From Clostridiaceae bacterium (GTDB taxonomy: Bacteria > Bacillota > Clostridia > Peptostreptococcales > T1SED10-28), in contig PWEO01000047.1 in NCBI GenBank assembly GCA_003553525.1, positions 1 to 64,000 on the forward strand: a stretch of 64,000 bases of DNA, in the 5' to 3' direction. Made by a program: the position numbers and the translations under genes. The notes under the pieces were generated by a model. It was not told the DNA's origin, searched no databases, and saw only the letters and a list, made by a program, of their open reading frames with translations. Positions 8,532-10,586 of the stretch are shown here, piece after piece. Within the stretch, counting starts at the first letter, position 1; each line of letters begins with the position of its first letter.

Positions 8532-9221
8532 CTATAGAGAAAACTCTGCTTTTATACATTTCCCGATAATTTTCAATTCATTGTTTTGCTTAGCTATAGC
8601 ACTTTCCTTGTCTAATCCTTGAATTAATGAAACTTTCCCGCCACCTTCCTTTCGAAGCTTTCGAATCGTTCGTCCTTTTTCCACATTGATTAGGTAAAAA
8701 GCACCATTTTCAATTTCCTGGGTATCTAGTACAGTGACCACATCTCCTTTTTTAATCCGAAATCCTTGCAAGGAATTATCAGTTACCTCAATAAAAAACA
8801 GTTTATCAGGGTGGTATCCTTCTACTTTATTTCCAATGAGAGGAAGGGATTTTTCCGCCACCACCTTTTTATTATCCATACGCTGTACCGGATAGGTTTT
8901 TACTAGGTTGCCCAAGGCTTTTTGCCATGCTCCCGTGGGTTTTAGATCATAATTTTGCAGTTTCTCTTTAGCTGTTACTTTTTGTTTGAACGATTTATTC
9001 CCGGATTCCTCTTGTAAAGTCTTTTCAGGCATACTCATAAAATCCATAGTTTTCCCTAGTTTTGTTAGTATTTTTTCCGCAACATCCTCTTTGATAACTT
9101 TTTTACCAGATTCAATATCCCGAAGATAGTTTTCGGATATTCCACATTTCTTTGCCAAGGCTTTCTCCGATAAATTGGCTTGTACCCTTGCTATTTTAAT
9201 TTGTTCAGCTAGCCGATTCAT
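8532..9221 (-). CDS. XRE-family regulator with S24/LexA-like C-terminal domain
   Basis: N-terminal HTH (LAKKCGISENYLRDIESGK); S24-like VTDNSLQGFRIKKGDVV ... GRTIRKLRK ... IIGKCI. Confidence 0.85.
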   Translation of the reverse strand: MNRLAEQIKIARVQANLSEKALAKKCGISENYLRDIESGKKVIKEDVAEKILTKLGKTMDFMSMPEKTLQEESGNKSFKQKVTAKEKLQNYDLKPTGAWQKALGNLVKTYPVQRMDNKKVVAEKSLPLIGNKVEGYHPDKLFFIEVTDNSLQGFRIKKGDVVTVLDTQEIENGAFYLINVEKGRTIRKLRKEGGGKVSLIQGLDKESAIAKQNNELKIIGKCIKAEFSL

Positions 9222-9338
9222 ATTATCACCTCATTTTTATGTCTTATACATATTTTATCACGATCACTTACCTTTCTCCAGAGCCTATTACATCATATTT
9301 TTTAGTATTACTTCGCAATGAACCTCAACTACTACTTT

Positions 9339-9364
9339 CGAATCCGTACCGAATCCGTTATAAT
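9339..9364 (+). promoter_or_regulatory. Tandem operator-like direct repeat abutting a -10 box
   Basis: CGAATCCGT (9339-9347) repeated at 9350-9358, 11-bp period, followed by TATAAT at 9359-9364. Confidence 0.5.
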
Positions 9365-9492
9365 ATACTAAAGATCCTTCTGAAATAAATGTTCTACAAA
9401 ATATTTATTCGAAGCTGTCTACATACTCCAGCGTTGTATTTCATAATACAAAATCTGAGGTTTGAGTGTCGGGACCTTGTAGGAGGTAGAAT

Positions 9493-9948
9493 ATGAGTAG
9501 TTTTCATTGGTTACAGGATTTAGTAAATTACTTGGAAAAACATTATAAAAGGACTCTTTACACCCATGAATCCATAATAAACTATAATTTTGACTCTTAT
9601 ATTGAGCAACGACAGAGCCCGAGTTTTTCTCAGAAGCTGCTTTACATTTTATCCGAAAAAGACCTTGATGATCCGGAAGTGTATAAAGGTGCGGGCATCG
9701 ACCGAAAACATTTTTCAAAAATACGGTCAAACCCTTCTTATCAACCGAAGAAAAAAACCGCCTTTGCCCTATGTCTTTCTCTCCGGTTAGATCTTAGTGA
9801 AGCGGAGACACTTTTACGCTCGGCAGGTTATTCATTTTCTAGCAGCCAGACCTTGGACCTTGTTGTTCAATACTGTATTGAACACAAAATTTATGATCTT
9901 CAGGAAGTCAATTATGCTCTTAATCATTATGGACTCGATCACCTGTAA
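9493..9948 (+). CDS. Stand-alone protein resembling the C-terminal domain of bacterial macro-domain proteins
   Basis: FSQKLLYILSEKDLDDPEVYKGAGIDRKHFSKIRSNPSYQPKKKTAFALCLSLRLDLSEAETLLRSAGYSFS; RBS aggagg. Confidence 0.75.
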   Translation: MSSFHWLQDLVNYLEKHYKRTLYTHESIINYNFDSYIEQRQSPSFSQKLLYILSEKDLDDPEVYKGAGIDRKHFSKIRSNPSYQPKKKTAFALCLSLRLDLSEAETLLRSAGYSFSSSQTLDLVVQYCIEHKIYDLQEVNYALNHYGLDHL

Positions 9949-10043
9949 TATCAATTCTTTGAATCCCTGTAAAACATCAGAATTTTCTGGTATACTATGG
10001 GTAGGAAGATTATTTTTTTCGTAATAAATAGGAGGGGTTTTTC

Positions 10044-10586
10044 ATGAAGAAAAAAGTTTTAGTTGTGATTGATTATCAACAGGACTTTGTCACCGGTAGC
10101 TTAGGTTTTAATGAGGCAGAAAAATTAGACTCCATTATCTGTGAAAAAATTGTAAGCTATAAGGATCATCAGGTTTTTTATACCTTAGATACCCATGATG
10201 AAGAATATTTAGAATCCTTAGAGGGAGAATCACTACCTATTGAGCACTGTATTAAAGGAACTAAAGGACATGAGGTGTATGGCAAGACGAAAAGATGTCT
10301 TGATGAGGTACGGGCACAACCCTTGGAAAAACGTAGCTTCGGGATTCATCCTCAAGAACTCCACGAACAATGTTTTGATTTTTATGAAGACGAGTTAGAG
10401 TCCATCGAGTTAGTCGGTGTGGTAACCAATATCTGTGTGATTTCCAATGCTATCGTTCTTAGAACCATGTATCCTGAGGTAAAAATCATTGTAGACAGCA
10501 ATGCTACTGCATCACCGGACAGGGAACTTCATGAAAAAGCACTGGATGTTTTGGAAGGTCTTCATATTACTGTTATAAACCGGTAA
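10044..10586 (+). CDS. Cysteine hydrolase, isochorismatase/nicotinamidase-like
   Basis: VVIDYQQDFVTGSLGF, HCIKGTKGHEV, GVVTNICVISNAI (D-K-C triad). Confidence 0.88.
   Translation: MKKKVLVVIDYQQDFVTGSLGFNEAEKLDSIICEKIVSYKDHQVFYTLDTHDEEYLESLEGESLPIEHCIKGTKGHEVYGKTKRCLDEVRAQPLEKRSFGIHPQELHEQCFDFYEDELESIELVGVVTNICVISNAIVLRTMYPEVKIIVDSNATASPDRELHEKALDVLEGLHITVINR

Follow-up and report, generated by a model that had tools for sequence, protein, structure and literature searches.

The two genes described here lie on the forward strand of a window of 64,000 nucleotides, which is the whole stretch of DNA that was analysed. The first gene, P0001 (9493-9948, 151 aa), has a Shine-Dalgarno sequence, AGGAGG, at 9481-9486 and a likely -10 box, TATAAT, at 9359-9364, which according to the upstream alignment is kept in 5/5 genomes of the genus (G000 to G004, G000 being the one that contains P0001). 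The second gene (10044-10586, 180 aa, Shine-Dalgarno sequence at 10030-10037) starts after a gap of 95 bp and encodes a nicotinamidase-like cysteine hydrolase, which we treat as a neighbour outside the P0001 unit. Both reading frames, their strand and their distance were as described in the initial annotation. P0001 is single-copy within its own genome. Furthermore, it is a real gene under clear purifying selection, with a pairwise dN/dS of 0.12-0.29 inside the genus and with its start, Shine-Dalgarno sequence and helix intact in five species. A repressor gene with HTH_3 and Peptidase_S24 domains (8532-9221, reverse strand) is divergent from P0001 in 5/5 genomes of the genus. Between this S24-type repressor and P0001, at window positions 9337-9364, there is a TTCG...CGAA repeat beside the conserved -10 (TTCGAATCCGTACCGAATCCGTTATAAT), which is perhaps the operator of the repressor. 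The window also gave an Rfam match to MicX, which we attribute to chance (score 26.9 bits, cut-off 75).

The initial annotation had recognised in the 151-aa protein a module that is usually the C-terminus of macro-domain proteins, and had seen no macro domain in it. The Pfam search of P0001 indeed found no macro domain (PF01661), nor any family above its curated cut-off, the only hit being a sub-threshold HTH_26 (15.1 bits against 22). Residues ~32-149 align with the C-terminus of macro-domain proteins of 320-380 aa at 38-48% identity (E down to 1e-30). P0001 was matched in 26 of the 60 relatives, mostly by the last ~110 residues of proteins of this size that start with a macro domain, and therefore the earlier recognition was correct. 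A family profile, built from alignment A2 with its rows verified against the loci, matched residues 44-151 (9622-9945) with an E-value of 1.5e-48, which delimits a conserved module of ~108 residues. The PDB sequence search with P0001 returned only antibody and TCR matches, due to chance, and PADLOC had no model for P0001, the hydrolase or the vWA, ARG and 192-aa proteins discussed below.

This module was found as the C-terminus of macro-domain proteins across Bacillota, as well as on plasmid records in proteins annotated as 'O-acetyl-ADP-ribose deacetylase' and 'macro domain-containing protein'. The profile search detected it in 121 of 391 genomes of the class, either fused to a macro domain, or in macro-less proteins of 150-270 aa, or fused to DnaQ/BRCT; no macro domain was detectable in 45 of the 95 family members sampled. 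In the module tree the genus clade groups with macro-less proteins encoded divergently from a vWA gene (16-row clade, 96/90); a long branch inside the genus clade, L063, was not trusted. P0001 is a macro-less and vWA-less member of this family, that is, an orphan. Distant module-like sequences were also observed at the C-termini of large proteins (L023, L099, L100); in one of these, L023, a HEXXH-like motif seen by eye points to an ImmA/IrrE-like peptidase. The phage family phrog_4031 (626 residues) matches P0001 at its C-terminus too.

Regarding the N-terminal part of P0001 (residues 1-43, 9493-9621), AF2 predicts helices at 5-29 and 33-40 with lower confidence. By hhalign, residues ~5-25 look like the last macro-domain helix of the fused relatives, and the comparison of macro-less N-termini, that of P0001 included, with macro-domain tails gave a P of 2.4e-5 (prob 75%). 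This resemblance suggests that the macro domain was probably lost and that residues ~5-25 are probably its remnant. A ligand-binding sensor domain is missing in P0001, where there is the helix remnant only. In one locus (L141, G583:C20, 6146-7146) the macro domain is encoded in one frame and the module in another that overlaps it; this split gene may show the origin of the macro-less forms, or it may be a sequencing frameshift.

The AF2 model of P0001 (67 sequences) is all helical, with a pLDDT of 91 that reaches 97-99 over most of residues 44-151. Almost all its Foldseek matches were Cro/C1 HTH regulators, such as C.BclI, C.AhdI, SinR, DdrO and the N-domain of CapH (prob 1.00, TMt 0.7-0.8, E above 0.02). 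Judging by this model, the module is a Cro/C1-type helix-turn-helix followed by two C-terminal helices, the Pfam HTH match being sub-threshold and the Foldseek E-values being above 0.01. The recognition helix is encoded by the codons D70-R78 (DRKHFSKIR, 9700-9726; AF2 helix 71-79), and P0001 has the canonical sequence IDRKHFSKIR.

A survey of the neighbourhoods of module homologues gave as recurrent partner a vWA protein of ~215 aa, and not the hydrolase with which the initial annotation had paired P0001. The vWA gene was alongside in 60 of 95 distinct module loci (34/50 macro-fused, 26/45 macro-less), and many of the remaining 35 were cut by contig or locus ends. The vWA family occurred in 17 of the 60 relatives and all 17 had the module. 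The third recurrent gene at these loci is an ADP-ribosylglycohydrolase, and in several of them SseB-Macro or ARG-SseB-Macro proteins follow the module. At L132 (2902-4746), L130 (8471-10423), L136, L097 and L103, ADP-ribosylglycohydrolase-SseB-Macro, as a fusion or as separate genes, comes directly after the macro-module gene and the vWA gene is absent, so SseB seems to replace vWA there. An ARG with a vWA or SseB gene, present in relatives, was not found at the P0001 locus. No vWA gene was found beside P0001 or anywhere in G000, G001, G003 and G004, which have only the orphan module; likewise, macro-fused forms of the family were not found in G000, whose only macro protein is unrelated and stands alone.

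An inverted repeat, GTCGC-N7-GCGAC, was first seen in common upstream of divergent macro-less genes, and a scan of all the loci showed that it adjoins nearly every module gene. With 61 non-redundant sites oriented by vWA, a TA...T hexamer (-10) starts exactly 21 bp after the repeat in 54 of them and 20 bp after it in four, the other offsets averaging 1.24 hexamers (binomial 1.9e-83 for offset 21). The aligned promoters have an extended -10, a pyrimidine-A at +1 and an A-rich flank before the site. The -35 box is absent from these composite promoters, in which -35 matches were fewer than in shuffles. The operator has 17 bp, from -50 to -34, with its centre near -42.

We then searched the 391 genomes of the class for the composite pattern, that is, GTCGC-N7-GCGAC with a -10 at 20-21 bp. 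Strong modules were present in 107 genomes, composite promoters in 98 and both in 82 (odds ratio 55, Fisher P 5e-45), the exact composite promoter being missing in 25 of the 107 genomes with a strong module. Within 3 kb of a module we found 79 of 117 composite promoters. Sites distant from a module often had a vWA gene downstream (L183, L184, L188, L190, L195, L196, L199) and one preceded SIMPL and ARG genes (L182); some of the remaining distant sites are chance. As a held-out test we turned to previously unused plasmid and phage records, from Clostridia, Negativicutes, Bacilli and phage. Wherever module and vWA occurred together (7 of 7 loci) the exact site was present, its -10 lying at offset 20-21, and on a Selenomonas plasmid the operator occurs twice, once before ARG and once before vWA. 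Furthermore, variant helices pair with variant half-sites at the same position, as in the macro protein of G002 (VSKQTFSKIR, GTCCC-N7-GGGAC) and in L152 (LNRALFNKIK, GTCTC-N7-GAGAC), with few independent changes behind this covariation; L135, with S for D in its helix, retains GTCGC. The DRKHFSKIR core of P0001 is identical to that of relatives with GTCGC-N7-GCGAC at their vWA promoters. The fold and the operator together predict that the module is a DNA-binding domain and not a metabolic one. The link to NAD/ADP-ribose proposed in the initial annotation holds for the ADP-ribose context of the family (macro fusion, ADP-ribosylglycohydrolase and SseB neighbours) and is not supported for a two-gene unit with the hydrolase.

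The site might be read in other ways. As an inverted repeat that sometimes comes right after the stop codon of the module gene and is then followed by T's, GTCGC-N7-GCGAC could be an RNA hairpin, either a terminator or a leader element, with the module not being its reader. However, the sequence of the half-sites is conserved, which a terminator stem does not need, the orientation tracks vWA even with the module gene divergent, the site precedes unlinked vWA, SIMPL-ARG, cas and hsdR genes, and no Rfam family matches the repeat. The fixed spacing of 21 bp to an extended -10 and a +1 A places the repeat upstream of the start site and also argues against a hairpin, which we consider extremely improbable. 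A module that represses is a more serious candidate, although still an unlikely one. It would block the polymerase at -42 until an ADP-ribose signal derepresses the promoter; most Cro/C1 proteins repress, a repressor might equally recognise a site at -42, and at loci with a macro-less gene divergent from vWA the leader of that gene contains the site, which fits autorepression. Nevertheless, a promoter with an extended -10 only, fewer -35 matches than shuffles and a site centred at -42 bears the marks of activator dependence.

Regarding the target of P0001, no operator with at most two mismatches and a correctly spaced -10 was found in the window, and nothing in 9201-10100 comes closer to the operator than four mismatches. 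G000 has a single exact operator, in trans, at G000:C32:6067 (GTCGCCTGCCAGGCGAC); TATAAT follows at offset 21, and downstream of it is a gene of 192 aa (composite promoter G000:C32:6067-6110). This promoter is kept before the orthologue in G001, G002 and G004, and also in the sister genus, G005; the G003 assembly, which is 63% complete, lacks both the gene and the site. Between the genus and G005 the 21-bp spacer has diverged in sequence and its length is unchanged. The operator and spacing before the G005 gene (L177, G005:C72, 3859) occur in an assembly, 80% complete, where no module was detected. A target promoter with no detectable module means that the site could have a different reader in G005, and this is the main counterpoint to the assignment. 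Outside family f1, the operator is lacking from homologues of the 192-aa gene. The 192-aa family (L172 5160-5732, with orthologues L173, L174, L175 and L177) is patchy in the order. Pfam, PHROG and PDB contain no relative of its protein, and none of the fold matches to the AF2 model (pLDDT 75, five sequences) was credible.

For the locus itself, the initial annotation had proposed that P0001 and the hydrolase form an uncharacterised two-gene unit linked to NAD/ADP-ribose. Its description of the hydrolase as a D-K-C enzyme resembling nicotinamidases was right: the protein belongs to PF00857 (Pfam, E 6e-15), and D10, K96 and C131 together with the metal-site residues D49, H51 and H68 align with solved pyrazinamidase/nicotinamidase-like enzymes. 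It shares these catalytic and metal-site residues with the isochorismatase-family nicotinamidases, but it differs from them in scoring below the cut-off of the curated nicotinamidase/pyrazinamidase model (13.1 bits against 174) and it is not part of the P0001 unit. In favour of the proposed pairing, both genes are adjacent on the same strand in 5/5 genomes of the genus, with a gap of about 95 bp in most, and the wider module family has ADP-ribose-linked neighbours. However, the whole region is syntenic in the genus: ~18 kb with some 20 flanking genes are kept in all five genomes, and where the contigs are long enough the gene order is the same for some 10 kb on each side, from the M32 carboxypeptidase to beyond era, the exception being G001, which has a different gene beyond the XRE regulator. 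The sister genus G005 keeps the hydrolase alone, with the M32 carboxypeptidase on one side and the same HD-domain gene on the other, in an interval without P0001, XRE, lipB and lipA and in an assembly without a P0001 homologue. Six other genomes of the order (G013, G014, G031, G035, G036, G059) have a strong module and a hydrolase homologue on different contigs. In addition, the gap holds AATTTTCTGCTATACT, identical or near-identical in the five genomes, in which the alignment reveals the hydrolase's own promoter with an extended -10, TGGTATACT, at 9988-9996 on the forward strand, and the module operator was not found at -42 of this promoter. The hydrolase also evolves slowly (dN/dS about 0.03-0.1), far from the faster rate of P0001. 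No linkage beyond general synteny was found. The synteny of the whole region, the lack of linkage elsewhere and the separate promoter indicate that the pairing is shared synteny and not a functional unit, and we give the latter very little credence.

The other possibility is that P0001 is a functionless, decaying fragment of a macro-domain gene, given that its N-terminus is like the last macro-domain helix and that the vWA and macro-fused forms of the family are missing in G000. Nevertheless, the purifying selection and intact signals noted above, the position of P0001 within a clade of macro-less members and the conservation of the target promoter make decay highly improbable.

Thus, homology, predicted fold, architecture, operator and spacing, co-occurrence and a conserved target promoter in trans lead us to regard P0001, with good confidence, as a macro-less, rewired orphan of a family of Bacillota macro-HTH transcription activators, with the 192-aa gene as its likely target; P0001 itself is predicted to be a DNA-binding transcription activator. 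The usual form of the family would be a one-component activator, with an ADP-ribose-binding macro domain fused to a C-terminal Cro/C1-type HTH. A dimer of the module would bind TGTCGC-N7-GCGACC, centred about -42 of an extended -10 promoter without -35, and would recruit RNA polymerase like lambda CI at PRM, switching on the adjacent vWA gene and often also an ADP-ribosylglycohydrolase gene. The P0001 lineage would have lost the macro domain and the vWA partner and kept the DNA-binding module with its canonical helix, which would act on the promoter on another contig. Here, binding, dimerisation, activation rather than repression, and ADP-ribose sensing by the fused forms are what we infer.

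Lambda CI at PRM binds a 17-bp site from -50 to -34 of a promoter without -35. The module family has in common with it and other Cro/C1 activators the HTH fold, a 17-bp operator of short half-sites, a centre near -42 and a poor -35. However, the module family lacks the cleavable S24 domain, is either macro-fused or unfused, is chromosomal, before vWA and ADP-ribosylglycohydrolase genes, and its activation is our reading. NrtR, which is Nudix-HTH and ADP-ribose-responsive, differs as follows: the module family has macro instead of Nudix and a Cro/C1 HTH instead of a winged helix, and whereas NrtR is a repressor, an activator with a putative ligand response is proposed here, P0001 having no sensor.

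ARG-centred systems (Viruses 2022, PMC9503650) have ARG, vWA, SseB and Macro genes in a shared neighbourhood, which is also found at the module-family loci. According to that paper, they come from actinobacteria, planctomycetes and proteobacteria, have Nudix or WYL regulators and are predicted to reverse the ADP-ribosylation of host proteins. Our loci are from Bacillota, and the macro-HTH protein with a defined operator is not described in section 3.8 of the paper. By analogy with these systems, and because of the module neighbours, the biological role might be the reversal of ADP-ribosylation, possibly in phage defence. A wider reading, which is plausible but has in our opinion slightly less than an even chance, is that the macro-module proteins are ADP-ribose-sensing class II activators of a Bacillota-wide regulon, which would reverse or respond to ADP-ribosylation in phage or toxin attack and is also borne by some phages, and that P0001, as a rewired orphan of this system, controls the 192-aa protein as a new effector. 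The regulon would comprise vWA, ADP-ribosylglycohydrolase, SseB fusions and occasionally type I-B cas or hsdR.

This family of gene switches is widespread and apparently undescribed: in the open-access literature, to which the search was confined, we found no macro-HTH activator, no macro-vWA pair and no GTCGC-N7-GCGAC operator. Macro domains are known to read and to erase ADP-ribose. If our reading is true, a protein that unites such a domain with a DNA-binding activator would connect ADP-ribosylation directly to transcription, a mode of reading not described before, and this would offer a function for a large set of proteins publicly annotated as O-acetyl-ADP-ribose deacetylase, macro domain-containing protein or hypothetical protein. 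Actually, the operator is so sharp (10 fixed bases and an exact spacing) that targets can be predicted genome by genome, which makes the function of the common and unexplained macro-vWA pair testable.

Some individual sites are worth recording. Two phage records, L220 (PV036457.1, 3332-5557) and L221 (MT838259.1), carry a macro-module gene, a vWA gene and the exact operator-promoter. At L180 (G029:C143, 735-4410), a type I-B cas8b-cas7-cas5 operon has GTCGC-N7-GCGAC in front of it, followed at about offset 20 by a -10-like TAGAAT, so the macro-HTH regulator may control CRISPR-Cas in this species. At L194 (G136:C5, around 4220) the gene that directly follows an exact composite operator-promoter is hsdR of a type I restriction system. 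Finally, at L176 (G002:C7, 3928) the exact site, with TATAAT at offset 21, is found before an IS200-like (Y1_Tnp) transposase gene.
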